From a virus, in the IMG/VR virus record IMGVR_UViG_3300046008_000380, positions 1 to 39,111 of that record: 39,111 bases of DNA. The stretch is one strand, 5' to 3'. The position numbers and the translations under genes were made by a program. Every line of letters starts with the position of its first letter. Positions within the stretch are counted from its first letter, which is position 1. Shown in pieces: positions 7,145-31,448 of the stretch. The notes below the pieces were generated by a model. It ran no database searches, was not told the DNA's origin, and saw only the letters and a program-made list of their open reading frames with translations.

Positions 7145-7189
7145 TTAACCTTCACATGTATAAATATATAATAAACATGTGAAGGTTAA
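7145..7189 (+). promoter_or_regulatory. Hairpin with late promoter in its loop, controlling the HNH gene
   Basis: TTAACCTTCACATGT (7145-7159) is perfectly complementary to ACATGTGAAGGTTAA (7175-7189). The 3' arm holds the AAGG ribosome binding site. The late box TATAAATA (7159-7166) starts at the end of the 5' arm and runs into the loop, so a late transcript would start after the 5' arm and leave the site free, while read-through RNA from nrdA would fold and hide it. Confidence 0.7.
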
Positions 7190-7193
7190 TAAA

Positions 7194-7934
7194 ATGAATT
7201 ATAAAAAGCAATACGAGTCATTAGTAAAAACTAGAAAAGAAAGAATTTTAAAGGAGGGTGAATATTACGAAAGGCATCATATATTGCCCAAATGTCTAGG
7301 TGGGTCAAATGATAAAGAAAATTTGGTAGTACTAACGGCAAGAGAACATTATATTGCCCACTGGCTTCTTTGTAAAATATATCCAGAATCATGGAAAATA
7401 AAAAGTGCATTATTTCAAATGGCGAAATGCAACGGCAAGAACAAAAGAGTTATTTCGTCTTCCCAATATGAAAGAGCTAAAAAATATAATTCATTGGCAT
7501 TAAAACAGAAATCAAAAGAACCCGGATATATAAACCCAGGAAAGTCTGAGAAATCAAGAAGTATAGCTAAAGAAAAATGGAATTCAGACTTGAATCCCAT
7601 GATAAGGTTTCCAGAGAGAAATCATACCGCAAAAAAGATAACAGTAGAATATGATGACGGGAGTATAAAAGAATTCAAAATGAAAAAAGCTTTGGCTCTT
7701 GAATTAAAATCGAAAACAAATTTAACAGATTCTGCCATAAAGCACAGAATTAATAAAAATAATTTACAGGAATTTGGTTATAAAAATATAATCATGGAGA
7801 TAAAATTGAATAAACCTGGAATTGCCAGTATAGGTAGAAAATGGTATACTAATGGAATAGACAACATGTTTGTATTTCCTGGTAATGAGGCAATCGGATT
7901 TAAACTTGGCAGGACTAAAAAGATTAAAGGATGA
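7194..7934 (+). CDS. HNH homing endonuclease between nrdA and nrdB
   Basis: A free-standing HNH endonuclease of 246 residues. The motif YERHHILPKCLGGSNDKENL, then LTAREHYIAHWLL near residues 25-65, is the typical H-H-N-H phage type. A basic Lys/Asn-rich C-terminal half probably binds DNA. ATG 7194 is chosen because AAGG at 7182-7185 is well spaced; an in-frame GTG at 7179 lies inside the upstream hairpin. It ends five bases before nrdB. Insertion between reductase genes is a common homing site in T4-like phages. Confidence 0.85.
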   Translation: MNYKKQYESLVKTRKERILKEGEYYERHHILPKCLGGSNDKENLVVLTAREHYIAHWLLCKIYPESWKIKSALFQMAKCNGKNKRVISSSQYERAKKYNSLALKQKSKEPGYINPGKSEKSRSIAKEKWNSDLNPMIRFPERNHTAKKITVEYDDGSIKEFKMKKALALELKSKTNLTDSAIKHRINKNNLQEFGYKNIIMEIKLNKPGIASIGRKWYTNGIDNMFVFPGNEAIGFKLGRTKKIKG

Positions 7935-13944: not shown

Positions 13945-13983
13945 TATAAATATATATTATAACTCATTTAAGGATTATAATAT
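13945..13983 (+). promoter_or_regulatory. Late promoter plus start-site hairpin for the GIY-YIG gene
   Basis: TATAAATA (13945-13952) is an exact late box. Just downstream, ATATTATAA (13954-13962) is complementary to TTATAATAT (13975-13983), placing the AAGGA ribosome binding site in the loop and the ATG in the stem. Late RNA should begin within the 5' arm and so lose part of the hairpin. Confidence 0.6.
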
Positions 13984-14677
13984 GTATGGCTATATCTATA
14001 AAACTACAAATCTTATTAACGGCAAGACTTATATAGGGCAGAAAAAATCTTCGAAGTTTGAAAAATCATATTATGGATCTGGATTATTAATTTCAAGAGC
14101 AGTTGAAAAATATGGAATAGAAAATTTTAAAATTGAAATATTATGTTGGGCTCTTTCAAAAGAACACTTAGATGAACTAGAAATATTATTAATAGAATCA
14201 AATTCAGTAAATGAAAATTATAATATAGCAAAAGGTGGTGATGGAGGTGATACAACATCAAATAATCCTAATAAACTTGAAATAATAGAAAAAAGAAAAG
14301 AAGGTATAAAGAAATTTAATGAATCTCTTTCAGATGAGTATTGGGTTGAAAGAAATATTAAAATAAGTAATTCTAAAAAAGGGAAAAGTAATGGTAGAGA
14401 TGGTTATAAACACAACCAAGAAACTAAAGATAAAATTAAATTAGCTAATCTAATTTCTAATAGTGGTGAAAATTGGACAGAAGAAAGAAGAAATAATTTT
14501 CTTGCTGCAATGGAAAAAAGAAGAGGTGTCACAAATAAAACATCAAAAATATTTAAAAAGGTTATTATTGATGGTATTATTTACTTAGATATAAAAGTAG
14601 CAGCAAAAGAACTTATTTTAACAAAAACAACTATATATAACTGGATAAGAAATGGAAAGGCAAAATATATTGATTGA
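13982..14677 (+). CDS. GIY-YIG homing endonuclease
   Basis: A 231-residue Seg-type endonuclease. YGYIYKTTNLINGKTYIGQK supplies the GIY and YIG elements at the N-terminus, followed by YYGSG, the helix containing RAVEKYG and the ENYN/AKGGDGG segment. The C-terminus is a basic helix-turn-helix-like region (VAAKELILTKTTIYNWIRNG). It is inserted between the dehydrogenase and cytidylyltransferase genes, and its last bases overlap the latter's start. It is strikingly AT-rich and Lys/Asn-rich, like the other endonuclease genes here. Confidence 0.9.
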   Translation: MYGYIYKTTNLINGKTYIGQKKSSKFEKSYYGSGLLISRAVEKYGIENFKIEILCWALSKEHLDELEILLIESNSVNENYNIAKGGDGGDTTSNNPNKLEIIEKRKEGIKKFNESLSDEYWVERNIKISNSKKGKSNGRDGYKHNQETKDKIKLANLISNSGENWTEERRNNFLAAMEKRRGVTNKTSKIFKKVIIDGIIYLDIKVAAKELILTKTTIYNWIRNGKAKYID

Positions 14678-16817: not shown

Positions 16818-17372
16818 ATGGCTCGCAAACAATTTAATATTGCAGAATGTACCGATGGTCAGATGGTTGATATTGAGACTTTAGGTATTGTGCCTAACTC
16901 AGTAATTCTGCAGATTGGTGCATGCCGCTTTAATGTTCTTACTCGTGAGACATATGACCACTTTTTAGTTAACATTGAACCAAAAACTTGTATTGAAGCA
17001 GGTATGGTTTTCTCTAAAGATACAGTTAAGTGGTGGACAACTCAATCACCTGAGGTTATTGCATCATTAAATGAGAATAAAGTTTCAATTCAAGAAGCTC
17101 TTACTGAGTTTAAAGCTTGGATTAAACGAGGTTCATGTATTTCTGCTCAAGGTGTTACATTCGACATGGGTATTTTGGCTAGTGCTTATGATACTGTATT
17201 ACATGAAGATACTCCGTGGAATTTCTGGGACATCTTTGATTTAAGAACTGTGTGTGCAATTTCTGGAATTAAGCCTGTTAAGGGTGAGATGTCTCATAAT
17301 GCCATGGCCGATGTTGAGAGTCAATGTCAAGTACTATTTGAATGTTTTAGCCCTACTGAGGAAGAAGTCTAA
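16818..17372 (+). CDS. dexA: 3'-5' exonuclease, DexA / DnaQ-like
   Basis: A 184-residue DEDD exonuclease. MVDIETLG supplies the first Asp and Glu, AQGVTFDMGILASAY the second Asp, and SHNAMADVESQ the HxxxxxD element, giving a DEDDh enzyme. T4 DexA (227) degrades single-stranded DNA 3' to 5'. The 3' end overlaps a convergent GIY-YIG gene by 20 bases, a sign of that element's insertion. Confidence 0.88.
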   Translation: MARKQFNIAECTDGQMVDIETLGIVPNSVILQIGACRFNVLTRETYDHFLVNIEPKTCIEAGMVFSKDTVKWWTTQSPEVIASLNENKVSIQEALTEFKAWIKRGSCISAQGVTFDMGILASAYDTVLHEDTPWNFWDIFDLRTVCAISGIKPVKGEMSHNAMADVESQCQVLFECFSPTEEEV

Positions 17373-18066
17373 CAAATCCTTTATAATACCCATTATTTCT
17401 AAAGTTTCTATTAGCAGAACTATAAACTAAACCAAAATTTGAACATAATTCTTCTGTTCCAATAAGTTCTATTAGAAATCCCATTGGTGTTAAAAAATTA
17501 TAAAGTTTTGTCATGGTAGTTGCAATCTTAAAATTATGATCTGAAGTATTTGGCTTTCTTGGACCTCTGATTTTTCCTTTTTGAGTAGCAGATCTTTTTG
17601 TTATGTGTTCTATTGTCTGTTTTTTACCTAACTTAGCAGCAGACCATTTCGCTTTAGTCTCTTCAGAATGTATTTTACCTTTATTTTTACCTATCATTGA
17701 TTTAGCACGTTTAGCAATGGTTTCTTCTGAATGAGATTTACCAATAGTATTAAATGCTTTCTTTAAATGAAAACACACTTTATTCAATGATTGTTCTTTT
17801 GAGATTTGCCATTGTTCCCAGATAAGTAGTTGTTCATGCAACCAAGAATCTTTAGGTTCAAAGAATTCAGCAACTATAATCCAATCAAATTCATGGAATT
17901 TTGCTTTAATTTCTGGAGCTGATGTTCTATAGATATAAAGATCAATATGAGAAGGTCTGTTGAGTTTTATATTTCTCATTCTAGAACCTTGATATTTCTG
18001 GCCTGTTACTTTGTGAGTGCCTTCATAGACATATGATAAGACTTTTGTGCTAGGATAAATTAACAT
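17353..18066 (-). CDS. GIY-YIG-type homing endonuclease on the minus strand
   Basis: This is the only clear minus-strand gene in the window. The N-terminus SYVYEGTHKVTGQKYQGSRM is a divergent GIY-YIG pair, and the middle carries NUMOD3-like repeats (SHSEETIAKRAKSMIGK, IHSEETKAKWSAAKLGKK) followed by a helix-turn-helix-like end. It lies between dexA and the ligase gene in opposite orientation. The start follows AGGAG on its own strand. A 5-bp hairpin (18071-18087) holds this ribosome binding site in its loop, recalling the other endonuclease genes. Confidence 0.85.
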   Translation of the reverse strand: MLIYPSTKVLSYVYEGTHKVTGQKYQGSRMRNIKLNRPSHIDLYIYRTSAPEIKAKFHEFDWIIVAEFFEPKDSWLHEQLLIWEQWQISKEQSLNKVCFHLKKAFNTIGKSHSEETIAKRAKSMIGKNKGKIHSEETKAKWSAAKLGKKQTIEHITKRSATQKGKIRGPRKPNTSDHNFKIATTMTKLYNFLTPMGFLIELIGTEELCSNFGLVYSSANRNFRNNGYYKGFVRLLPQ

Positions 18067-23284: not shown

Positions 23285-23550
23285 TGCCATTATCGGATTT
23301 CAAATGTGATGACTGCGGTACAATCTTTGAGTTATACCACTCTAATGACGACTGGGCTGCCAGAACAATACCTTGTGCTGAGTGTGGTTCTACACACTTA
23401 GGCAAGTACTTTGGTAATTCTAATGTTGGCATTGTTCACAACGTCACTCAATTAAATAAACTTGTACCTACTGGAATGAAAGACGTACTTAAGTCTATCA
23501 AAGGTGGCGCAGGTAGACACGCAAACGAAACAACCTTCCAATCAATCTAA
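23284..23550 (+). CDS. FmdB-like zinc-ribbon protein
   Basis: An 88-residue protein with CDDCGTIFE and CAECGSTHLG, the two CxxC pairs of an FmdB-type zinc ribbon, in its first 45 residues. The tail (KDVLKSIKGGAGRHANETTF) looks flexible. Phage members are thought to bind nucleic acid or regulate expression, but the role is unproved. Confidence 0.8.
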   Translation: MPLSDFKCDDCGTIFELYHSNDDWAARTIPCAECGSTHLGKYFGNSNVGIVHNVTQLNKLVPTGMKDVLKSIKGGAGRHANETTFQSI

Positions 23551-23632
23551 GAAAGGATACAAGACTAATTATCTTACAACATTAAAGCAAGCAACCTCTA
23601 CACATTACAATAACAATAAGAGAGCTCCAAAT

Positions 23633-24361
23633 ATGTCAAGAAGTAAATTACGCGCAAAAGAACTACATAAACACCTTGATTTTGATACACAAGAGGTTTA
23701 TAGAACTAATACAGCACTAAAATTAAAACCAATTAGACCTAAAACTTTTGCACAAGAACAAATGCAAGGTGCTTGGGGTGCAGGTAATAATTTGGTCTTA
23801 TCGGGTTCCGCAGGTACAGGCAAAAGTTTTTATTCATGTTATTTAGCATTACAATGGGTACTTGACAACCCAGATAAGAAATTACTCATTATAAGATCAC
23901 CAGTGCAAACAAACTCAGTTGGGTTTCTACCAGGCACATTGGAAGAAAAGGAAAGACCATTTAAAGAAATCTTTATTGATATAGTAAATAGTCTTTGTAT
24001 CTATCCAGGCACTTGGGGTGAATTAGAAAGAACTGGTAAAGTTGAGTTTATGACGACAGCAAACATCAGAGGAGCGACTTGGGATAATTGTGTTGTGTTA
24101 TTTGATGAGATACAAAATGCTGAATGGAAAGAAATTGCTTCTGTATGTACACGTTTAGGTAAAGGTTCTCGTATTATTCTTTCTGGTGATTGTAAACAGA
24201 CTGATTTAGATGGCCGTAAGAATAAGTCTGGTTTTAATGATATGATTAATGTTGTATCTCGTATGAGTTCTTTTGATGTTGTTAATTTCTTACCACAAGA
24301 TATTGTTAGATCTGGCTTTGTTAAAGACTTCATCTTAGCATGTGAGGCAGTAGGACTTTAA
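23633..24361 (+). CDS. phoH: PhoH-like ATPase
   Basis: A 242-residue P-loop ATPase. SGSAGTGKSF is the Walker A motif, VVLFDEIQNAE Walker B, and LSGDCKQTD the sensor region, as in PhoH and helicase superfamily 1-like proteins common in T4-like and marine phages. Proposed roles include RNA metabolism. ATG 23633 is the first methionine after the preceding gene; the frame is open further upstream without a better start. Confidence 0.88.
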   Translation: MSRSKLRAKELHKHLDFDTQEVYRTNTALKLKPIRPKTFAQEQMQGAWGAGNNLVLSGSAGTGKSFYSCYLALQWVLDNPDKKLLIIRSPVQTNSVGFLPGTLEEKERPFKEIFIDIVNSLCIYPGTWGELERTGKVEFMTTANIRGATWDNCVVLFDEIQNAEWKEIASVCTRLGKGSRIILSGDCKQTDLDGRKNKSGFNDMINVVSRMSSFDVVNFLPQDIVRSGFVKDFILACEAVGL

Positions 24362-24384
24362 TGGTTTTTATTAGGTAACATTAA

Positions 24385-24417
24385 TAGAAGTGACACTCAT
24401 TTTTGCTGTCACTTCTA
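24385..24417 (+). terminator. Hairpin after phoH
   Basis: TAGAAGTGACA (24385-24395) pairs perfectly with TGTCACTTCTA (24407-24417). The 3' arm overlaps a late-like box TATAAATT (24416-24423) that could serve pqqA. Confidence 0.65.
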
Positions 24418-24423
24418 TAAATT
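24416..24423 (+). promoter_or_regulatory. Possible late promoter before pqqA
   Basis: TATAAATT matches the late consensus at 7 of 8 positions, about 39 bp before the pqqA-like start and directly after the phoH hairpin. Confidence 0.4.
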
Positions 24424-24461
24424 AATATGTAACACCTTAAAATAACCTTTGGAGAATTATT

Positions 24462-24533
24462 ATGTGGACTAAACCAGCTGCAACAGAAATGCGCTTCGGG
24501 TTTGAAGTAACTATGTACGTAATGAACAAATAA
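24462..24533 (+). CDS. pqqA: PqqA-like precursor peptide of pyrroloquinoline quinone
   Basis: A 23-residue peptide beginning MWTKPA and containing [11 protein letters not shown]. Known PqqA peptides are 22-24 residues, start MW.KPA and have R.G.EVT.Y with the Glu and Tyr (here E15 and Y19) that PqqE joins to build PQQ. Both are present at the exact ExxxY spacing. A Shine-Dalgarno GGAG lies at 24451-24454. No other pqq gene is in the window, so host PqqB-E would be needed. It sits alone between phoH and the tRNA array. A chance match of this length and pattern is very unlikely. Confidence 0.88.
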
Positions 24534-24588
24534 TTAAAAATATTTTGCAAAAACACTAGAAACTGATAACTACTTGATAAATAGATAT

Positions 24589-24696
24589 ATGAACAAATTT
24601 ACACTCATTAACACACAGAAACATAACGCCTCTATGCTTACGGCATATTGCCCGTTATCGTCAGTGCGTTTTAGTAATGAGGGTTGGAATGGTTAA
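24589..24696 (+). CDS. Possible 35-residue peptide after pqqA
   Basis: An ATG frame starting MNKFTLINTQKHNASML and ending FSNEGWNG. There is no clear ribosome binding site, but GATAAATA just upstream (24575-24582) resembles a late box. It lies between pqqA and a terminator. The composition is protein-like but no family is recognised, and it may be non-coding. Confidence 0.3.
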   Translation: MNKFTLINTQKHNASMLTAYCPLSSVRFSNEGWNG

Positions 24697-24729
24697 AGGT
24701 CTTTAATGTAAAAGTTCAGCAGTATACTT

Positions 24730-24766
24730 AAAAGACCTAATCCTTAAAAAGTTTTAGGTCTTTTTG
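24730..24766 (+). terminator. Strong terminator before the RNA array
   Basis: AAAAGACCTAA (24730-24740) pairs with TTAGGTCTTTT (24754-24764), ending in a T-rich tail. It separates the pqqA region from the RNA-array promoters. Confidence 0.8.
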
Positions 24767-24776
24767 CATTTAGTTG

Positions 24777-24805
24777 TTTACATTTAATATTGATGTGTAT
24801 ATAAT
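24777..24805 (+). promoter_or_regulatory. Early-type promoter for a small structured RNA
   Basis: TTTACA (24777-24782), 17 bp, TATAAT (24800-24805), then GTCTTTATTGATTGA. The only thing before the next promoter is one folded RNA. Confidence 0.8.
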
Positions 24806-24811
24806 GTCTTT

Positions 24812-24890
24812 ATTGATTGAAAAGCGGTTCTTTTAAAATAATTTGGTTGGGAGATCTGCCCGGAAAGAAATTCCAAATTATTTTAAAATA
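24812..24890 (+). ncRNA. Small structured RNA with a 16-bp stem
   Basis: TTTTAAAATAATTTGG (24831-24846) is perfectly complementary to CCAAATTATTTTAAAA (24873-24888). The 26-nt head contains GGGAGATCTGCCC and GGAAAGAAATTCC mini-hairpins, giving a Y shape. It has its own early promoter and no open reading frame. It may be a stable phage RNA like T4 RNAs C and D, or a promoter-proximal processing element. Function unknown. Confidence 0.55.
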
Positions 24891-24894
24891 ATTG

Positions 24895-24923
24895 TTTACA
24901 TTAAAGATTAGTTAATATATAAT
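24895..24923 (+). promoter_or_regulatory. Main early-type promoter of the RNA array
   Basis: TTTACA (24895-24900), 17 bp, TATAAT (24918-24923), then GTCTTTAATGAATT. No other clear promoter is seen until 29208, so this one probably drives about 4 kb of tRNA and structured RNA. Confidence 0.75.
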
Positions 24924-24929
24924 GTCTTT

Positions 24930-25056
24930 AATGAATTTAGTTGTAGGTGTTCTGAGGTGACTGTTTACCCTGCCGACACTTTAAAGAGAGAGGCTTAAAT
25001 GATTGGGGTTCTGGAGAGACAAAGGTCTCAATAGACTAGGTTTACGACGGTAAACC
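24930..25056 (+). ncRNA. Structured leader of the RNA array
   Basis: No reading frame. Clear hairpins are GAGAC-AAAG-GTCTC (25016-25029) and GGTTTAC-GACG-GTAAACC (25039-25056), with a weaker GTGT/ACAC pair further upstream. An outer stem could not be defined. It may be a processed RNA or a leader. Confidence 0.4.
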
Positions 25057-25171
25057 ATATATTGAAATGCTTTTGATTTCTCTTTATATTACACAATACG
25101 CTGGCGAAACAGTATAATGTTAGTTGGTTTAATGATAGTATAAGGTATCTTTGAGAGTGTTTCAATATATG
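25056..25171 (+). ncRNA. Structured RNA with a 12-bp closing stem
   Basis: CATATATTGAAA (25056-25067) pairs perfectly with TTTCAATATATG (25160-25171). Inside are a CTG-GCGAAA-CAG hairpin, with flanking ATA/TAT, and a GATA/TATC hairpin. No anticodon or CCA end is seen, so it is not a tRNA. Confidence 0.5.
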
Positions 25172-25172
25172 T

Positions 25173-25254
25173 ATTCTCCCAAATTGGGACTCCTTGTTGC
25201 TAGGATGAAAGGGGACAGCAGTCCTCCTTATGTTATTGTAATATAACAGAGAAT
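25173..25254 (+). ncRNA. Cloverleaf-like RNA without anticodon
   Basis: ATTCTC (25173-25178) closes with GAGAAT (25249-25254). Three inner arms follow: CCCA-AAT-TGGG, GGACT/AGTCC and TGTTAT-TGTAAT-ATAACA. The last stacks directly on the closing stem, as a T-arm does in tRNA. No CCA is encoded and no 7-base anticodon loop is present. Confidence 0.45.
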
Positions 25255-25259
25255 CTTAT

Positions 25260-25348
25260 GGAAGGTGATGTAGCCGGGGATGCTACCGCTGTTTTGAACG
25301 CAGCTGGAACCGAAAGGTCAGGATTTCGATTATGCCCTCCTTCCGCCA
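25260..25348 (+). tRNA. tRNA-Ser(UGA)
   Basis: Acceptor GGAAGG/CCTTCC with G73 and encoded CCA. D-loop CGGGGAT. Anticodon loop TTTGAAC (UGA) on stem GCTGT/GCAGC. Extended variable region as expected for serine. The T-stem is weak, with a bulged G around TTCGATT. Confidence 0.75.
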
Positions 25349-25389
25349 ATACGTGGACTGTTCACCACTATAAAAACGAGGGAGAATTT

Positions 25390-25472
25390 GGGCGACTGGT
25401 TAATACGAATTGGCACAGTTACTGGTTTTAGAAGCCAGACCTTTCTCGGTTCGAGTCCGAGGTCGCCTACCA
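25390..25472 (+). tRNA. tRNA-Leu(UAG)
   Basis: Acceptor GGGCGAC/GTCGCCT, A73, CCA. Anticodon loop TTTAGAA (UAG) on CTGGT/GCCAG. T-arm CTCGG-TTCGAGT-CCGAG. The D-region is enlarged (about 25 nt, with ATTGGCA), while the variable loop is only about 6 nt, unlike a normal class II leucine tRNA. Canonical elbow (GG with UC). Confidence 0.8.
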
Positions 25473-25479
25473 AATTTTT

Positions 25480-25554
25480 GGCTCTGTCATATAGTGGCTA
25501 TTATATCCGCCTGTCTAGTGGAATATGAGGGTTCGATTCCCTCCAGAGTCGCCA
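25480..25554 (+). tRNA. tRNA-Asp(GUC)
   Basis: Acceptor GGCTCTG/CAGAGTC, G73, CCA. D-stem ATAT/ATAT with GG in the loop. Anticodon loop CTGTCTA (GUC). T-arm GAGGG-TTCGATT-CCCTC. Canonical elbow. Confidence 0.9.
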
Positions 25555-25558
25555 AGTT

Positions 25559-25624
25559 TTAAACCGTGTTCACCGTGAAATTCGGTCTTAGCCACAACAT
25601 TAGAATGCAGCTTGTGGGGTTTAA
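25559..25624 (+). ncRNA. Y-shaped RNA between tRNA-Asp and tRNA-Tyr
   Basis: TTAAACC (25559-25565) pairs with GGTTTAA (25618-25624). Two inner hairpins are ACCG-TGAAATT-CGGT and CCACAA/TTGTGG (with CATT/AATG inside). The second hairpin abuts the 3' strand of the 7-bp closing stem like a T-arm on an acceptor. It follows the same AAGTTTT linker that separates tRNAs. Confidence 0.55.
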
Positions 25625-25633
25625 TTAGTTTAT

Positions 25634-25718
25634 GCGTTGATATACCGTTAAGGACACGGCCTGGACTGTAAATCCAGTATCTCTGATTGGCTAGGATCGT
25701 TACCTAGGCAACGCACCA
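25634..25718 (+). tRNA. tRNA-Tyr(GUA)
   Basis: Acceptor GCGTTG/CAACGC, A73, CCA. D-loop TTAAGGACA on CCG/CGG. Anticodon loop CTGTAAA (GUA) on CTGGA/TCCAG. Long variable arm. T-arm CTAGG-ATCGTTA-CCTAG, so positions 54-58 are A-U instead of U-A. Confidence 0.88.
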
Positions 25719-25726
25719 AAAGTTTT

Positions 25727-25801
25727 GCCCTTGAAACATAAATGGTGATGTGCCGGTTTTGTAATCCGGAAAATACAGTTCAAGTCTGTACGAGGGCACC
25801 A
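25727..25801 (+). tRNA. tRNA-Thr(UGU)
   Basis: Acceptor GCCCTTG/CGAGGGC, A73, CCA. D-arm ACAT-AAATGGTG-ATGT. Anticodon loop TTTGTAA (UGU). T-arm TACAG-TTCAAGT-CTGTA. Canonical elbow. Confidence 0.9.
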
Positions 25802-25809
25802 AGTTTTAT

Positions 25810-25884
25810 GCGTCTGAAGTGTTGGTGATTACACGCCGTCCTTCCAAGTCGGATTATAGGGTTTGACTCCCTACAGACGCTCCA
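25810..25884 (+). tRNA. tRNA-Gly(UCC)
   Basis: Acceptor GCGTCTG/CAGACGC, U73, CCA. D-arm GTGT-TGGTGATT-ACAC. Anticodon loop CTTCCAA (UCC) with one U-U in the stem. T-arm TAGGG-TTTGACT-CCCTA: base 56 is U, and the D-loop offers G18-A19. Confidence 0.88.
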
Positions 25885-25894
25885 AGTTTTAAAT

Positions 25895-25968
25895 GCTTTG
25901 ATAATTCAATGGTAGAATAATCGACCGATAATCGATAAACACAGGATCGTTACCTGTTCAAAGCACCA
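25895..25968 (+). tRNA. tRNA-Ile(GAU)
   Basis: Acceptor GCTTTGA/TCAAAGC, A73, CCA. D-arm ATTC-AATGGTA-GAAT. Anticodon stem ATCGA/TCGAT around CCGATAA: anticodon GAU but C at position 33 where U is nearly invariant. T-arm ACAGG-ATCGTTA-CCTGT (A54-U58). Confidence 0.85.
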
Positions 25969-25970
25969 AT

Positions 25971-26044
25971 CTCTGATTAGTATAGTGCTAATACTCTTGT
26001 TTTGGGAACAAGGATCGTTGGTTGGATTCCAACATCAGAGACCA
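25971..26044 (+). tRNA. tRNA-Pro(UGG)
   Basis: Acceptor CTCTGAT/ATCAGAG, A73, CCA. D-arm GTAT-AGTGCTA-ATAC. Anticodon loop TTTGGGA (UGG) on CTTGT/ACAAG. T-arm GTTGG-TTGGATT-CCAAC. The elbow pair is C19-G56, the reverse of the usual G19-C56. Confidence 0.88.
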
Positions 26045-26052
26045 AAAGTTAT

Positions 26053-26127
26053 GGGGGCAGCAATGAGTTGCGGAGAACACTTGCAATGTTCTTGTCTAGA
26101 AGAGTTTGATTCTCTCGGCCTCCACCA
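26053..26127 (+). tRNA. tRNA-Ala(UGC)
   Basis: Acceptor GGGGGC/GCCTCC region with one G-U, A73, CCA. D-arm GCA-ATGAGT-TGC. Anticodon loop CTTGCAA (UGC) on GAACA/TGTTC. T-loop TTTGATT: U56 with A19 in the D-loop. Confidence 0.85.
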
Positions 26128-26133
26128 AAGAAA

Positions 26134-26210
26134 CGGTAATGCCCTAGTCGTAAGTGTCTGCAGCGCGAAAAGACAAGTAAGTTAAATTAGCAGATGGGTT
26201 CGCTATGCCG
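26134..26210 (+). ncRNA. Y-shaped RNA after tRNA-Ala
   Basis: CGGTA (26134-26138) closes with TGCCG (26206-26210). Inner hairpins are TGTCT/AGACA (26155-26175) and TAGC-AGATGGGTTC-GCTA (26188-26205), the latter stacked directly on the closing strand. No CCA or anticodon loop. Confidence 0.5.
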
Positions 26211-26283
26211 GGAAGAGAAGTTCTAGATGCCGGGATATCCGGAAAGCTCGGTTACATGTCAGATAGCTGTTCTGACCTCTTCT
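26211..26283 (+). ncRNA. tRNA-like RNA without CCA
   Basis: GGAAGAG (26211-26217) pairs with CTCTTCT (26277-26283). Inner arms are CCGG-GATAT-CCGG and GTCAGA-TAGCTGT-TCTGAC, the second with a 7-nt loop directly before the 3' closing strand, as in a T-arm. The middle loop has only five bases, so no normal anticodon. It ends in AAATTTTT. Confidence 0.5.
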
Positions 26284-26308
26284 AAATTTTTAATGTAGTA
26301 TGTTTTGG

Positions 26309-26395
26309 TCCACAGTAAGCATAACTGGTACTGCACCGCACTGTTAATGCGGCTTCCGAAAGGTCTTGCTGGTTCGAACCCAGCCTGTGGAGCCA
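26309..26395 (+). tRNA. tRNA-Asn(GUU) with an unusually long variable loop
   Basis: Acceptor TCCACAG/CTGTGGA, G73, CCA. D-loop contains CTGG. Anticodon loop CTGTTAA (GUU) on CCGCA/TGCGG. T-arm GCTGG-TTCGAAC-CCAGC. The variable region CTTCCGAAAGGTCTT is 15 nt with a mini-hairpin, where asparagine tRNAs normally have about five. Confidence 0.88.
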
Positions 26396-26416
26396 AAACA
26401 TATTAAGGGAATAATC

Positions 26417-26536
26417 ATGAAAACAAGAAATGAAAATCTTCGTAAGTTACAATTTAGAACAGGTGCTGGTGCTCATGTTAAGAGCAATAAAGCATTACGA
26501 AGAAAGAATAAAGTTGTATTAAGTAAAGAATTATAG
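26417..26536 (+). CDS. Small basic protein within the tRNA array (39 aa)
   Basis: ATG 26417 is preceded by AAGGGA. The product starts MKTRNENLRKLQFRTGAGAH and is rich in Arg and Lys throughout. Similar tiny basic proteins occur in phage tRNA clusters. No fold or function is known; RNA binding is a guess from charge. It lies between tRNA-Asn and tRNA-Lys on the same transcript. Confidence 0.75.
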   Translation: MKTRNENLRKLQFRTGAGAHVKSNKALRRKNKVVLSKEL

Positions 26537-26542
26537 TATTAT

Positions 26543-26618
26543 GGGTTGCTGATGAAATTGGCTATCATATGACGCTTTTAACGTCGCTTTCAGAGTTCGA
26601 ATCTCTGGCAACCTACCA
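26543..26618 (+). tRNA. tRNA-Lys(UUU)
   Basis: Acceptor GGGTTGC/GCAACCT, A73, CCA. D-arm ATGA-AATTGGCTA-TCAT. Anticodon loop CTTTTAA (UUU) on TGACG/CGTCG. T-arm CAGAG-TTCGAAT-CTCTG. Canonical elbow. Lysine tRNA is a frequent target of host anticodon nucleases. Confidence 0.92.
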
Positions 26619-26626
26619 AGTTTTAT

Positions 26627-26701
26627 ATCGCATTAGACATCTGGTGAGGTCAGCAGGCTTTCAACCTGTTCAGAGGGGATCGTAACCCCTATGCGATGCC
26701 A
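26627..26701 (+). tRNA. tRNA-Glu(UUC)
   Basis: Acceptor ATCGCAT/ATGCGAT, G73, CCA. D-arm GAC-ATCTGGTGAG-GTC. Anticodon loop CTTTCAA (UUC). T-arm AGGGG-ATCGTAA-CCCCT (A54-U58). Confidence 0.9.
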
Positions 26702-26728
26702 AGTTTTTGTTACTTTACGTTCTATAAT

Positions 26729-26784
26729 TGTTTCAGCAATTACTGAGTAAAAGTAAATCACTGTGCTATATAGATGCTGAAACA
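26729..26784 (+). ncRNA. Structured RNA with a 10-bp stem
   Basis: TGTTTCAGCA (26729-26738) pairs perfectly with TGCTGAAACA (26775-26784). Inside lies TTACT-GAGTAAA-AGTAA with a 7-nt loop. It occupies the long spacer between tRNA-Glu and a tRNA-like gene. Confidence 0.5.
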
Positions 26785-26800
26785 TCAACACAAGCATAGA

Positions 26801-26868
26801 GGATATTGGTCTACTGGATACGGCGCCTGCGCGGAGCAGGAGAACAAGGTTCGATTCCTTGATATTCG
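26801..26868 (+). tRNA. tRNA-like gene with an abnormal anticodon arm
   Basis: Acceptor GGATATT/GATATTC with G73, a D-loop containing CTGGATA and a normal T-arm CAAGG-TTCGATT-CCTTG. The anticodon stem CCTGC/GCAGG encloses only GCGGA (five bases); even with the last pair open, position 33 would be G. CCA is not encoded, unlike the other tRNAs in the array. It is probably a decoy or degenerate tRNA. Confidence 0.5.
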
Positions 26869-26877
26869 TTGAACAAT

Positions 26878-26953
26878 TGCGGAGATGGGCTAACTAAGCA
26901 AGCCGCCGGCCTCATAAGCCGGAGACGAGGTGCAATTCCTCTGTCCGCTACCA
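26878..26953 (+). tRNA. tRNA-Met-type (CAU) with mismatched 1-72
   Basis: Core acceptor GCGGA/TCCGC with U1-U72 unpaired, A73, CCA. D-arm GGC-TAACTAAGCAA-GCC. Anticodon loop CTCATAA on CCGGC/GCCGG. T-loop TGCAATT: G55 with A18-G19 in the D-loop. A 1-72 mismatch is an initiator hallmark, but it could also be an Ile2-type CAU tRNA. Confidence 0.8.
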
Positions 26954-26961
26954 AGTTTTGA

Positions 26962-27069
26962 GTGCTCAAGAAAAGCTTAATTATACTTTAGCGAGTATAG
27001 CTCAAATTAAGTTTTGGGAAAGTCCGTACTTTATATATTCTAGTGCAAGGAGAGACGGACAGCACACCA
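26962..27069 (+). ncRNA. Y-shaped RNA ending in ACCA
   Basis: GTGCT (26962-26966) closes with AGCAC (27061-27065), followed by ACCA. Arm one is CTTAATT/AATTAAG enclosing ATACT-TTAGCG-AGTAT; arm two is GTCCGT/ACGGAC (27022-27060), which stacks directly on the acceptor-like strand. No anticodon arm. The encoded CCA suggests a tRNA-like 3' end. Confidence 0.55.
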
Positions 27070-27079
27070 ATTTTACAAT

Positions 27080-27156
27080 GGCCGCGAGATGCAACGAGAC
27101 GCATATCACCCTTTGACGGTGAGTTTTAATAGGTGCAAATCCTATAGCGGCTGCCA
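27080..27156 (+). tRNA. tRNA-Gln(UUG)
   Basis: Acceptor GGCCGC/GCGGCT, G73, CCA. D-arm ATGC-AACGAGAC-GCAT with no GG. Anticodon loop CTTTGAC (UUG) on TCACC/GGTGA. T-arm ATAGG-TGCAAAT-CCTAT: G55, matched by A18-G19. Confidence 0.88.
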
Positions 27157-27158
27157 GT

Positions 27159-27231
27159 TTTAATAGAGGGACGCTTCGGCGTAAGAGTGCCCTTAATATC
27201 CACGTCGCGTATCAAACGTGAGTCTATTAAA
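27159..27231 (+). ncRNA. Y-shaped RNA between tRNA-Gln and tRNA-Ser
   Basis: TTTAATAGA (27159-27167) pairs perfectly with TCTATTAAA (27223-27231). Arm one is GGG/CCC enclosing ACGC-TTCG-GCGT, a UUCG-capped hairpin; arm two is CACGT/ACGTG (27201-27220). No CCA or anticodon. Confidence 0.6.
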
Positions 27232-27239
27232 TTCAATAC

Positions 27240-27328
27240 GGAAGATGAACTTATCGGGTGATAAGCGCTGTTTGCTAAACAGTTGAGACTCGCAAGGGTC
27301 TTGGGGTCGGTACCTACTTCTTCCGCCA
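27240..27328 (+). tRNA. tRNA-Ser(GCU)
   Basis: Acceptor GGAAGA/TCTTCC, G73, CCA. D-arm CTTAT-CGGGTG-ATAAG. Anticodon loop TTGCTAA (GCU) on GCTGT/ACAGT. Long variable arm AGACTCGCAAGGGTCT. The T-arm is weak, reading about TTGGG-GTCGGTA-CCTAC. Confidence 0.82.
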
Positions 27329-27440
27329 GAATGCATCCGCAACTTCAGCGGTCTTGAAGAGGTGATTTTACCGGGACCATACACGGTGATGAGGTTTTGG
27401 AAGCGACCTCGGAGAGTCTAATTAACTCAGCTGACACATT
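27329..27440 (+). ncRNA. Multi-hairpin RNA before tRNA-Phe
   Basis: Four hairpins in a row: CCGC-AACTTCA-GCGG (27337-27351), ACCG/CGGT (27370-27387), GAGGT/ACCTC (27391-27410) and GAGT-CTAATTA-ACTC (27414-27428). Two have 7-nt loops. A short AATG/CATT pair could close the whole. No CCA or reading frame. Confidence 0.45.
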
Positions 27441-27515
27441 GCTTCTTTGAGTCAGATAGATGACTAGCGGTCTGAAGAGCCGACGAGGATGGTGCGATAC
27501 CATCAGGAAGCACCA
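27441..27515 (+). tRNA. tRNA-Phe(GAA)
   Basis: Acceptor GCTTCTT/AGGAAGC, A73, CCA. D-arm AGTC-AGATAGAT-GACT with no GG. Anticodon loop CTGAAGA (GAA). T-arm GATGG-TGCGATA-CCATC: G55, matched by A18-G19. Its CCA end takes part in the stem of the following structured RNA. Confidence 0.88.
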
Positions 27516-27585
27516 CATTAAAATACACTGTGTATTCGATACAGGACTTGATTCTGATGTCCCATAGCAGTGTATTTTAATGTGG
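27513..27585 (+). ncRNA. Y-shaped RNA with an 18-bp stem joining tRNA-Phe and tRNA-His
   Basis: CCACATTAAAATACACTG (27513-27530) is perfectly complementary to 27568-27585. The head holds TGTAT-TCG-ATACA and GGAC/GTCC hairpins. The stem includes the last bases (CCA) of tRNA-Phe and the first four (GTGG) of tRNA-His, so it should influence how both ends are processed. Confidence 0.65.
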
Positions 27586-27659
27586 CCATATCATAAAAGT
27601 AATGACCTAGGCTGTGAACCTAGTTAAGAGGGAGCATTACCCTCTGGTCACCCCAAGTA
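27582..27659 (+). tRNA. tRNA-His(GUG) lacking G-1
   Basis: Acceptor GTGGCCA/TGGTCAC, C73, CCA. D-arm TCAT-AAAAGTA-ATGA with no GG. Anticodon loop CTGTGAA (GUG) on CTAGG/CCTAG. T-arm GAGGG-AGCATTA-CCCTC: A54, G55, C56, U58. The base before position 1 is U, not the G-1 that histidyl-tRNA synthetases usually require. End placed at the CCA near 27655. Confidence 0.82.
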
Positions 27660-27669
27660 AGGAGTTATT

Positions 27670-27846
27670 ATGAATTTTAGAATTATCTCAGAAAAATTAA
27701 AGAGTAAATATGAATGCGATGCAATCTACTTTGATTTTATTGAACTTGAAGATAAGGTAATAATTCATAAAGTATTTTATAGAGATAATACAAGAGTTCT
27801 AATGCAACCTACATCATATAGTTACGAGGAATTAATTTCATTATGA
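27670..27846 (+). CDS. Small protein of unknown function (58 aa)
   Basis: ATG 27670 follows GGAG at 27661-27664. The product (MNFRIISEKLKSKYECDAIY ... VIIHKVFYRDNTR) looks like a compact alpha-beta protein with no known motif. Its stop overlaps the next start (ATGA), so the two small genes inside the tRNA array are coupled. Confidence 0.7.
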   Translation: MNFRIISEKLKSKYECDAIYFDFIELEDKVIIHKVFYRDNTRVLMQPTSYSYEELISL

Positions 27847-28019
27847 AGCAAGTCCCTCAATGGGTAAAAGATAGAGAAGCATTAGCACAACCACATGAAG
27901 AAGTTACTTTTGTGGGTGAAATGGGTGTTGATGCAGTTGTAGATGGTAAATTACCAAATGGCGAGCCTTATGTCTATCACAGACAAGATAAGAAATCCAG
28001 AGGTAGAAGAAGTAGATAA
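27843..28019 (+). CDS. Small protein of unknown function (58 aa)
   Basis: Coupled to the preceding gene by ATGA. It begins MKQVPQWVKDREALAQPHEE, has a central strand region (VTFVGEMGVDAVVDGKLPNG) and ends in a strongly basic tail (KKSRGRRSR), which could bind RNA or DNA. No family was recognised. It ends just before a Met-type tRNA. Confidence 0.7.
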   Translation: MKQVPQWVKDREALAQPHEEVTFVGEMGVDAVVDGKLPNGEPYVYHRQDKKSRGRRSR

Positions 28020-28021
28020 TT

Positions 28022-28097
28022 CGTGATAGATGCTTTATAGTACGCAGATAGTTTCATAAACTGTTGAAATATGGTGCGAGTCCATATATCACGACCA
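28022..28097 (+). tRNA. tRNA-Met-type (CAU), second copy
   Basis: Acceptor CGTGATA/TATCACG, A73, CCA. D-arm TGC-TTTATAGTAC-GCA with no GG. Anticodon loop TTCATAA (CAU) on ATAGT/ACTGT. T-arm TATGG-TGCGAGT-CCATA: G55 with A18-G19. It may be elongator Met or Ile2. Confidence 0.85.
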
Positions 28098-28105
28098 GTA
28101 TAAAC

Positions 28106-28188
28106 GGGGATGTGGTGAAATTGGCAAACACATCTGATTTAAGCTCAGACGCTTCGGCTTGAGAGTTCGACCCTCTCCTTCCCCACCA
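28106..28188 (+). tRNA. tRNA-Leu(UAA)
   Basis: Acceptor GGGGATG/CTTCCCC with one mismatch, A73, CCA. D-arm GTG-AAATTGGCAAA-CAC. Anticodon loop TTTAAGC (UAA) on TCTGA/TCAGA. Variable arm CGCTTCGGCTT. T-arm GAGAG-TTCGACC-CTCTC. Canonical elbow. Confidence 0.9.
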
Positions 28189-28196
28189 AAAATAAT

Positions 28197-28270
28197 GCCT
28201 TTATAGTATAATGTTATTACAGTTCATTGGTACTGAACAAATTGAGGTTAGATTCCTCATTTAGGCACCA
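28197..28270 (+). tRNA. tRNA-Thr(GGU)
   Basis: Acceptor GCCTTTA/TTTAGGC with two U-U mismatches, A73, CCA. D-arm GTA-TAATGTTAT-TAC. Anticodon loop TTGGTAC (GGU) on GTTCA/TGAAC. T-arm TGAGG-TTAGATT-CCTCA. The elbow pair is U19-A56 in place of G19-C56. Confidence 0.85.
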
Positions 28271-28276
28271 AACAAT

Positions 28277-28351
28277 GAGTTATTAGTGTAATGGTTAGCA
28301 CACGGCACTCCAAACGCCTTAGAGAGGGTTCGATTCCTTCATTTCTCGCCA
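28277..28351 (+). tRNA. tRNA-Trp(CCA)
   Basis: Acceptor GAGTTAT/ATTTCTC with two U-U mismatches, G73, CCA. D-arm GTGT-AATGGTTA-GCAC. Anticodon loop CTCCAAA (CCA) on a partly paired stem. T-arm GAGGG-TTCGATT-CCTTC. Canonical elbow. Confidence 0.85.
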
Positions 28352-28357
28352 ATCAAT

Positions 28358-28431
28358 GCCCGATTAAGTAAATGGTATACTGCTCTCCTTACAAGTGAGA
28401 CTCGGCGGATCGTAACCGTCATCGGGTACCA
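28358..28431 (+). tRNA. tRNA-Val(UAC)
   Basis: Acceptor GCCCGAT/ATCGGGT, A73, CCA. D-arm AGTA-AATGGTA-TACT. Anticodon loop CTTACAA (UAC) with one U-U in the stem. T-arm GGCGG-ATCGTAA-CCGTC (A54-U58). Confidence 0.88.
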
Positions 28432-28437
28432 AACAAT

Positions 28438-28512
28438 GTGTCGTGAGCCAGTTGATATGGGCACCGGTCTGCAAAATCGAGTAACAGGGTTTGATTCCCT
28501 GACGACATTCCA
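28438..28512 (+). tRNA. tRNA-Cys(GCA)
   Basis: Acceptor GTGTCGT/ACGACAT, U73 as usual for cysteine, CCA. D-stem GCC/GGC with loop AGTTGATAT. Anticodon loop CTGCAAA (GCA). T-arm CAGGG-TTTGATT-CCCTG: U56 matched by A19. Confidence 0.88.
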
Positions 28513-28519
28513 ACTAATC

Positions 28520-28589
28520 GCCCCTGCCGATGGACGGACTTTGGCCTACGAAGCCGAAAGAAGCGGTTCGATACCGTTCAGGGGCTCCA
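28520..28589 (+). tRNA. tRNA-Arg(ACG)
   Basis: Acceptor GCCCCTG/CAGGGGC, U73, CCA. Very small D-arm CCG-ATGGA-CGG. Anticodon loop CTACGAA (ACG) on TTGGC/GCCGA. T-arm AGCGG-TTCGATA-CCGTT. Total 70 nt, canonical elbow. Confidence 0.88.
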
Positions 28590-28613
28590 ATAAATAATTG
28601 CAAAGGAGCATGT

Positions 28614-29204
28614 ATGAGTCATCCATTAGTACTGACATTAAATAGCCATGGACACCCTTTGCATTGGGTAAATTGGCAAGATGCTATTGTAGCAAAAGTT
28701 AAAGGTCTTGTGTCTTGGTCTTTAGGTGAGACAGAGATTGAAGTGAAAGGTGGTACTTCACGCTTAACAGGTGAACGAACAATCATTACAGTACCTACAA
28801 TCATTGCAATCAACAATGAACATCGTAATACACGTGTACCAGTTCTGACAAACATTAATCTGTTCAGACGTGACCTTCATATTTGCGGATACTGCGGCCG
28901 AATGTTTATGCCTGACAAGTTGTCTAGAGATCATATTATCCCTGTATCAAAAGGTGGTAAAGATAACTGGATGAATGTTATCACCGCATGTAAACGGTGT
29001 AATAATGAAAAAGACGATTTATCCATTGACGAATGGAATAAGAAATCACTTAAGGAAACAGGTGAAGGTAGAGCATTAGTCTATTTACCTTATACACCTG
29101 ATAGATCTGAACAGTTGATTTTGCAGAATAGAAACATCTTGCAAGATCAAATGGAATATATTAAGTCTTTTATTCCAGATCATTCTCGTTTACATAACAA
29201 ATAG
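28614..29204 (+). CDS. HNH endonuclease with two CxxC pairs
   Basis: A 196-residue protein. ICGYCGRMF and ACKRCNNEKDD provide the two zinc-binding CxxC pairs around DHIIPVSKGGKDNWMNVITA, the classic HNH core (near residues 85-135). This form is common in phages and may act in packaging or as a restriction-like nuclease rather than in homing. ATG 28614 follows AAAGGAG. It lies directly after tRNA-Arg on the array transcript. Confidence 0.85.
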   Translation: MSHPLVLTLNSHGHPLHWVNWQDAIVAKVKGLVSWSLGETEIEVKGGTSRLTGERTIITVPTIIAINNEHRNTRVPVLTNINLFRRDLHICGYCGRMFMPDKLSRDHIIPVSKGGKDNWMNVITACKRCNNEKDDLSIDEWNKKSLKETGEGRALVYLPYTPDRSEQLILQNRNILQDQMEYIKSFIPDHSRLHNK

Positions 29205-29207
29205 TTG

Positions 29208-29236
29208 TTTACAGTATATGTCTATTGATATATAAT
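29208..29236 (+). promoter_or_regulatory. Early-type promoter for tRNA-Arg(UCU) and the tmRNA region
   Basis: TTTACA (29208-29213), 17 bp, TATAAT (29231-29236), about 17 bp before the tRNA-like gene. Confidence 0.75.
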
Positions 29237-29252
29237 GTATTTAATGAAACAT

Positions 29253-29334
29253 GCGGCTGTATCTCACGGAGCTTCTACCTCCGCGTTAACCGAGTAATTG
29301 GAGTATGGGAGTTCGAGTCTCTCCAGCCGCGCCA
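29253..29334 (+). tRNA. tRNA-Arg(UCU)-like with a reduced D-arm
   Basis: Acceptor GCGGCTG/CAGCCGC, G73, CCA, and T-arm GGGAG-TTCGAGT-CTCTC are clear. A perfect CGGAG-CTTCTAC-CTCCG hairpin gives anticodon UCU. This leaves only seven bases (TATCTCA) for the D-arm and 23 for the variable region, so the molecule is not a standard cloverleaf. An alternative fold was tried without success. Confidence 0.55.
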
Positions 29335-29373
29335 GAATTGTTGTAGAAGCACTAAAGTAATACATGTTGGACG

Positions 29374-29394
29374 GCGGTTCGATTCCGCCCATTT
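29374..29394 (+). pseudogene. Truncated tmRNA/tRNA T-arm upstream of the HNH gene
   Basis: GACGGCGG-TTCGATT-CCGCCCA forms a normal T-arm, preceded by GTTG as at the 3' end of many tmRNAs, but stops without the acceptor strand or CCA. The same GACGGCGG and CCGCCCA reappear after the HNH gene (29914-29935) with a different loop. It is probably a relic left by the HNH insertion. Confidence 0.55.
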
Positions 29395-29402
29395 TATAAA
29401 TA
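29395..29402 (+). promoter_or_regulatory. Late promoter TATAAATA of the HNH gene in the tmRNA locus
   Basis: An exact late consensus whose expected start point is at or next to the ATG at 29408, so late mRNA could be leaderless. Confidence 0.6.
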
Positions 29403-29407
29403 CTTAT

Positions 29408-29893
29408 ATGCATATACATCACATTATACCAAAACACATGGGTGGAACAGATGATCCATCTAATTTAATAGAACTCACAATAGAAGAACATGCAGAGGCT
29501 CATCGGTTGCTATTTGAGCAACACGGTCAATGGGAAGATGAAATAGCTTGGAAAGGTCTTTCTGGTATGATTTCTAAAGAAGAAATTATATTTAGGACTC
29601 AAAGTGAGTCATCTAAAGAAGTTTTAAAAAGAAATGGTAATCCTTGGTCAGGTAAAAGAACAAAAACAAATTTAGCAATAAATGAGCAACAGAGATTAGA
29701 TATGTCAGAAAAGTCAAAATCTCCAGAAGCTATAGAGAAAAGAAAAGAATCATTTAAGAAAATTGGTCACCAACAAGGAGAGAAAAATTCTCAATTTGGT
29801 AAATTTTGGATAACCAATGAACACGAAAGTAAAATGATTTTTAAAACCGATAGTATTCCTGTTGGTTGGAGAAAAGGTAGAAGAATTCGTTGA
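29408..29893 (+). CDS. HNH homing endonuclease inserted in the tmRNA locus
   Basis: A 161-residue protein that opens at once with the HNH core: MHIHHIIPKHMGGTDDPSNL and EEHAEAHRLLFEQHGQW. Other phage HNH proteins I recall start the same way, supporting ATG 29408. The rest is basic with NUMOD-like repeats (SKSPEAIEKRKESFKKIG) and ends VGWRKGRRIR. It lies between a truncated T-arm and the complete tmRNA acceptor half, so the tmRNA gene was its homing site. Confidence 0.85.
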   Translation: MHIHHIIPKHMGGTDDPSNLIELTIEEHAEAHRLLFEQHGQWEDEIAWKGLSGMISKEEIIFRTQSESSKEVLKRNGNPWSGKRTKTNLAINEQQRLDMSEKSKSPEAIEKRKESFKKIGHQQGEKNSQFGKFWITNEHESKMIFKTDSIPVGWRKGRRIR

Positions 29894-29944
29894 AGGTGTG
29901 AGTAAGAGGTCAAGACGGCGGAGCATTACCGCCCAGGTCCACCA

Positions 29945-29976
29945 TAAAACATATTTTAATTAGTATGTTTTATCAT
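29945..29976 (+). other. Intervening hairpin of the permuted tmRNA
   Basis: TAAAACATA (29945-29953) pairs perfectly with TATGTTTTA (29964-29972). It links the CCA end to the mature 5' end and should be cut out during maturation, as in known permuted tmRNAs. Confidence 0.8.
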
Positions 29977-30053
29977 GGGCCTGAATAGATTCGATTGGCG
30001 TTGGATGGTCACCTGAGGATAGACAAGAAAGTCTTAAAAATCAAAAATTAAAT

Positions 30054-30092
30054 GCAAACGATAGCGTTTATACTATTGCTCTAGCAGCTTAG
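30054..30092 (+). other. tmRNA tag reading frame
   Basis: GCA AAC GAT and so on give ANDSVYTIALAA, then TAG. The AND start and LAA end match bacterial proteolysis tags; E. coli has ANDENYALAA. Confidence 0.88.
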
Positions 30093-30186
30093 TCGGGGTC
30101 CGCCGGTTCCTTGTTATCAAATACCGGCAATTAACTTCAATAGGAGATTATTATGCGATCGTAAATTACAACACGGAGCAATAATA

Positions 30187-31369: not shown

Positions 31370-31448
31370 GTGCCTCAAGCTTAAGTCTGGTATAAGCGCT
31401 CGGCTCATAACCGAAGGATAGAGGGTTCGAATCCCTCGGGGCACACCA
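31370..31448 (+). tRNA. tRNA-Met-type (CAU), third copy
   Basis: Acceptor GTGCCTC/GGGGCAC, A73, CCA. D-loop AGTCTGGTA. Anticodon arm CTCGG-CTCATAA-CCGAA followed by GG, which resembles the fMet anticodon arm. T-arm GAGGG-TTCGAAT-CCCTC. Canonical elbow, and isolated from the main array. Confidence 0.88.

Follow-up and report, generated by a model that had tools for sequence, protein, structure and literature searches.

PqqA is the consumable of the PQQ pathway and PqqB–E are its catalysts. In methylotrophic hosts of the kind considered here, the natural client is methanol dehydrogenase rather than glucose dehydrogenase. The PQQ pathway has been described (PMC10906245), as have the methanol dehydrogenase gene copies of the Methylophilaceae (PMC4109929). 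Members of the Methylophilaceae are reported to have 3 to 12 copies of pqqA, with the remaining pqq genes usually single (PMC4109929), and of the five pqqA copies of one methylotroph, two have expression levels well above the rest (PMC9851590). The closest described phage system dates from 2020, when VP_266, a T4-like phage population from Lake Baikal assigned to Methylophilaceae, was reported to carry PqqA (PMC7678222). Methanol dehydrogenase is likewise encoded by the Baikal phages, and VP_139 has radical SAM proteins besides (PMC7678222). In 2026, viral pqqA was included among phosphorus-cycle genes in reservoir sediments (PMC13188868).

For cultured methylophages, we found no report of pqqA in open-access main texts. 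The term "pqq" is absent from the main texts of PMC8024684, PMC8163748, PMC10580990 and PMC13059738, and PMC9004378 names PQQ a single time, as an ingredient, at 1 nM, of the medium for strain H5P1. Term searches of the papers describing MEP301, Venkman, Melnitz and MEP401/402 gave no phage PQQ gene, even though auxiliary metabolic genes have a section of their own in the MEP401/402 paper. One Methylophilaceae phage with PqqA is already published (PMC7678222), and the breadth, constraint and host match described below were not found in the part of the literature searched.

The stretch of DNA analyzed here (the window) is a record of 39,111 bases with 34.9% G+C. It contains genes for a gp32-type SSB, a T4 baseplate protein, a sliding clamp, NrdA/B, dCMP deaminase and PhoH, and is a 39 kb fragment of a T4-like phage. 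Like VP_266 as described (PMC7678222), it presents PqqA in a T4-like phage of probable Methylophilaceae, with the same proposed role. Unlike the Baikal phages, it has neither a PQQ alcohol dehydrogenase nor PqqE within its 39 kb.

The pqqA gene occupies positions 24462–24533 on the plus strand, and comprises 23 codons and a stop. An earlier note, made from the letters alone, had described a 23-residue frame with a good ribosome binding site; the frame is exact, and a GGAG site can be read in the sequence at 24451–24454 (plus strand), 7 nt before the ATG. The same note had called the product PqqA-like. PF08042 (Pfam PqqA) matched the 23-mer over its full length (positions 1–19 of 19) with 42.4 bits and an E value of 6.4e-11, against a curated cut-off of 21.1 bits, confirming the identification. 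A six-frame search gave this as the sole PqqA match in the whole record (40.2 bits, E 2.6e-11), which is far beyond chance. The EVTMY core of the translation holds both residues that are crosslinked, Glu15 (24504–24506, plus strand) and Tyr19 (24516–24518, plus strand), and the Glu-x-x-x-Tyr pair is present as E15 V T M Y19, as the note had claimed. The equivalent residues in PqqA of M. extorquens are Glu16 and Tyr20 (PMC10906245).

Upstream of pqqA is a phoH-like gene (23504–24361, plus strand; phrog_170, E 9.6e-71), for whose product no close relatives were found in IMG/VR. The 100 bases between the two genes contain a strong hairpin at 24384–24418 (plus strand; fold of 24362–24470, −23.6 kcal/mol, z −2.9), which may be the end of the phoH transcript. 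A consensus scan called no terminator at this hairpin and recognized no promoter directly before pqqA. The sequence TATAAAT at 24416, with 46 nt separating it from the ATG, was considered as a late promoter; this motif occurs 8 times on the plus strand of the window against about 12 expected and, since it is not enriched, no late promoter is claimed. After pqqA come approximately 950 bases (24534–25480), up to the first called tRNA, without ORFs of 60 or more amino acids, and two similar promoter-like sites, TTTACA-17-TATAAT, are found downstream of pqqA at 24777 and 24895. An Rfam scan of 24362–25480 gave a single chance-level match and none that was convincing. Further downstream are a tRNA cluster (25480–28509), a permuted (two-piece) tmRNA at 29882–30092 (plus strand; RF04321, 91.4 bits), also reported for Melnitz (PMC9004378), and another tRNA at 31370. 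There are five homing/HNH endonuclease genes in the 39 kb (7179–7934, 13982–14677, 17353–18066 on the minus strand, 28530–29204 and 29225–29893), two of which follow the tRNA cluster and precede the tmRNA.

The window peptide is identical, letter for letter, to 104 of the 188 Methylophilaceae PqqA copies fetched, and the genes for these identical peptides differ from the window pqqA at 4–11 of 66 bases, all of them silent. Of 187 Methylophilaceae genomes, 183 have a match to the DNA from 24362 to 30100, in all listed cases at pqqA. The six best matches (87–91% over 100–116 bases) start 26 to 42 bases before the ATG, and all are in genomes of 1.5–1.8 Mb, including one of Candidatus Methylopumilus universalis (G001, locus L161). 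DNA similarity to Methylophilaceae pqqA, which in the best matches sets in at 24433 or before, marks a host-like leader at 24433–24461 (plus strand). When the 28 bases preceding the ATG are compared, the eight host rows nearest to the window, some of which are the same host copy taken twice, have 4–5 mismatches and all belong to one Methylopumilus-like group. A scan of bacterial genomes for pqqA, confined to A/T-rich codons, gave among the matches listed mostly Methylophilaceae (Methylotenera, Methylophilus, Methylopumilus, Methylovorus), together with Methylophaga and some others.

The peptide identity and the similarity of the upstream DNA indicate that the phage very probably infects a methylotroph of the Methylophilaceae, on the evidence of one small gene. 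The likeness of the leader to that of the Methylopumilus-like group further suggests that pqqA and its ribosome site were captured together from a bacterium of this kind, and that this is most likely the host group. Its T4-like neighbors and host-identical peptide make this a host metabolic gene on a phage genome, as expected of an auxiliary metabolic gene. The suggestion in the earlier note that the peptide hints at the host is well supported by the identical host PqqA, and by the presence of PqqA in 100 and PqqE in 96 of 100 Methylophilaceae genomes.

In these 100 genomes the mean number of pqqA copies is 4.31 (median 4, range 1–12), with at least two copies in 96 genomes, while PqqE is present as one copy in 94 and two copies in 2. 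The scattered stand-alone pqqA genes of Methylophilaceae (PMC4109929) resemble the window gene in peptide, in leader and in a position usually away from pqqBCDE; they differ in being cellular genes, some of which adjoin the pqq operon (G001, G002), unlike that of the window. Two small genomes (G020, G069) have a tandem pqqA pair about 100 kb from pqqE (loci L288–L291), and no pqqA was found in the DNA examined around their pqqE. Scattered host copies also have in common a leader of approximately 110 bases that extends beyond the ribosome site (TTATTCATGA..GATAG..GCGTA..TATTCATT..; loci L133, L164, L168, L173, L180, L205, L230, L234 and L370), perhaps a common promoter or regulatory element.

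A tblastn search of 50,697 phage records with the window peptide returned 12 matches, and a query of another PqqA type returned the same 12. Two of these, both named "Acinetobacter phage MD-2021a", were dropped from the phage count. One (CAKLQF020000010.1, locus L297) has ppk, pqqB, pqqC, pqqD and a radical SAM gene beside pqqA and is therefore bacterial DNA, apparently chromosome and not phage; the other was dropped by name alone. The remaining ten are from phages: Venkman, P19250A, MEP301, MEP401, MEP402, four Melnitz records and the uncultured MW202481. All nine that have a recorded host infect Methylophilales or Methylophilaceae, a count that covers the Methylophilales records returned by tblastn; the taxonomy names MEP431–434, Venkman EXVC038S, HIM624-A, phiMB624-A, MG-MTP1 and RSA-MFP1 in addition. 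None of the ten records annotates pqqA as such: the gene falls in an annotation gap in five and under a "hypothetical protein" in five, and in the two of the latter five that were inspected this ORF lies over pqqA on the opposite strand.

The cultured methylophages Venkman, P19250A, MEP301, MEP401, MEP402 and Melnitz resemble the window in having a stand-alone PqqA frame of 23–24 residues starting with ATG. They differ from it in genome type and gene neighbors, and residues 2–5 are WTTP in P19250A and WTSP in MEP301. The cultured phages are themselves of more than one genome type. By record taxonomy, Melnitz belongs to Kyanoviridae and MEP401/402 to Zobellviridae; Venkman has been grouped with P19250A (PMC8163748). 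Over 5 kb, Venkman and MEP301 have in common only a 141-base patch around pqqA. This patch, set against the host-like leader of the window, leads us to a reading in which pqqA in phages would have at least two histories, host capture and spread between phages.

Two patterns were used to find pqqA in IMG/VR: pattern 1 requires WTKP and the EVT-Y core, and pattern 2 the core alone, with the N-terminus free. Pattern 1 found at least 120 contigs, and all 120 listed translate to PqqA; pattern 2 also found at least 120, of which 57 of those listed were new. Together the scans give at least 177 contigs with pqqA, a number that is not a rate. Among the contigs listed, the window and the named phages, 126 of 128 loci examined match pattern 1, the exceptions being P19250A and MEP301. 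The 126 phage copies among the listed matches and named phages all start with ATG, have an SD-like motif in 122 cases, and encode 60 distinct peptides. In the 120 pattern-1 contigs listed, the longest ORF near pqqA matches phage families such as primase/helicase (15 contigs), DnaB-like helicase (14 contigs), portal protein (7 contigs), clamp loader (5 contigs) and major head protein (4 contigs); these families suggest that the neighborhoods are largely viral, although not each is individually established. The listed contigs form at least 25 groups with fewer than two nearby ORFs in common, a number inflated by fragments. A tRNA is present anywhere in the DNA examined at 6 of 122 phage loci, and within 1 kb at 5, against 2.9 expected at random, numbers too small to support a link. 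At loci L003, L008, L010, L014, L018, L028, L032 and L105 the phage PqqA is of a second type: its leader has Tyr-Glu, and its core, with IRLGFE or VRLGFE, ends in MYF. This type suggests phages of other PQQ-making hosts.

The phage copies are under coding constraint. At the ten codons left free by pattern 1, pN/pS is 0.26 (98 distinct strings among the matches listed), and Arg, Gly and Phe are invariant in all 98 of these strings despite the 5, 4 and 2 codons by which they were encoded. No IMG/VR contig with Glu or Tyr replaced was found with one pattern per residue, patterns that omit codons starting with G at the Glu site or with T at the Tyr site and require the remaining core to be intact. 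The constraint and the absence of such replacements make decay improbable; against the idea of a dead-end decoy they are weak evidence.

PqqE and PQQ-dependent alcohol dehydrogenase were searched for in 50 pqqA phage records, many of them fragments: the window, two named phages, and 47 of the 120 listed contigs, chosen among the longest. Neither was found in any of the 50, PqqE being judged by its cut-off. Three records gave weak PqqE matches (17–28 bits), which we take to come from radical SAM proteins of a generic kind, as matches below the cut-off appear in 14 of 14 control genomes too. A pqq operon would include pqqE, and the window has none in the same record. The statement in the earlier note that no other pqq genes are visible thus stands for PqqE, the one partner searched for, which has no candidate in the 39,111 bases. 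From 50 largely fragmentary records we conclude that phage pqqA is usually not in an operon, and no more than that.

Residue 4 divides the PqqA sequences. Among the pattern-2 contigs listed it is Lys in 64 and another residue in 56, and the 57 new contigs include 44 with WTTP and 9 with WTSP. By the patterns used, 187 Methylophilaceae genomes divide into 86 with Thr/Ser only, 74 with Lys only, 23 with both and 4 with neither. P19250A, whose host is freshwater LD28, has WTTP, and marine OM43 phages have WTKP or WTSP. The N-terminal PqqA leader is thought to be bound by PqqD (PMC10906245), and we therefore conjecture that the split between Lys and Thr/Ser may reflect PqqD types.

We consider it likely that the window carries a genuine phage pqqA, derived with its ribosome-binding leader from Methylophilaceae, which acts as a substrate-only auxiliary metabolic gene feeding host PQQ synthesis. 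During infection, the 23-mer would be made from the replicating phage genome and bound by host PqqD; host PqqE would crosslink Glu15 to Tyr19; and a host protease, PqqB and PqqC would trim and complete the product, so raising PQQ and keeping up its supply to methanol dehydrogenase, to the benefit of the phage. The phage would shut off host expression, and host PqqB–E would outlast the shut-off. PqqA alone would pay because each PQQ uses up an entire PqqA while the enzymes are catalysts that persist; given the shut-off and the need of methanol dehydrogenase for PQQ, only PqqA would have to be resupplied. Hosts that have many pqqA copies but a single PqqE, and phages that have pqqA alone, fit resupply of a consumable, and the several scattered host copies may be the hosts' own answer to the same dosage need. 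Those same copies count against resupply, since the precursor may not be limiting in a host that already has several. The missing promoter signal just ahead of the gene, the scope of the Glu/Tyr patterns and the chance that PqqE lies beyond the ends of the fragmentary contigs also weigh against it. Of the interpretation in the earlier note, the identity and the host hint have held up, and the feeding of PQQ synthesis by a translated peptide is what we infer.

Alternatively, pqqA could be a passenger, a small gene picked up by chance from a many-copy family and of no benefit to the phage. With up to 12 scattered host copies capture would be easy, and the window leader is still like host DNA. 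We nevertheless regard this as unlikely in view of the coding constraint among phage copies (pN/pS 0.26), the occurrence of pqqA in all nine Methylophilales records returned and in the 25 or more (fragment-inflated) contig groups, and its presence as a cassette common to otherwise dissimilar phages. The peptide could instead be made in order to bind PqqD or PqqE and to block or retune host PQQ synthesis, as a decoy or regulator. That the substrate alone is carried, and that the PqqD-binding N-terminal residues vary between Lys and Thr/Ser, would suit such a role; we judge it very improbable, because the window peptide is the host's own, no Glu- or Tyr-replaced contigs appeared with the patterns tried, and both reactive residues are kept, though a decoy need not lose them. 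Least probable to us is that the DNA or RNA matters and not the peptide, as a small regulatory RNA or as a recombination site shared with the scattered host copies. That pqqA precedes tRNA genes both in the window and in Melnitz, and the 141-base patch of Venkman and MEP301, could be read in this way, but the codons show plentiful silent changes and the residues stay the same, a tRNA is within 1 kb at only 5 of 122 loci, and the one Rfam match around the gene is at chance level.

If a substrate-only auxiliary gene is indeed what the window carries, 72 bases would resupply the sole used-up part of the PQQ pathway. The wider pattern is the interesting part, rather than the window's gene itself. 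More tentatively, and with somewhat less than even confidence, we propose that phages of methylotrophs follow a near-universal strategy of furnishing the host's maturation enzymes with a consumable RiPP-type precursor alone, that this strategy arose more than once and has passed among phages that are not related, and that residue 4 (Lys or Thr/Ser) tracks the type of the host clade, so that a 69-base gene could help to name the host. The gene has been missed by annotation, and could serve to mark the host of viral contigs. A limitation of PQQ precursor during infection would be testable with phages and hosts already in culture, strain H5P1 and its phages Venkman and Melnitz among them. If these phages do resupply the PQQ precursor, they would influence methanol oxidation among methylotrophs that are abundant in fresh and coastal waters.
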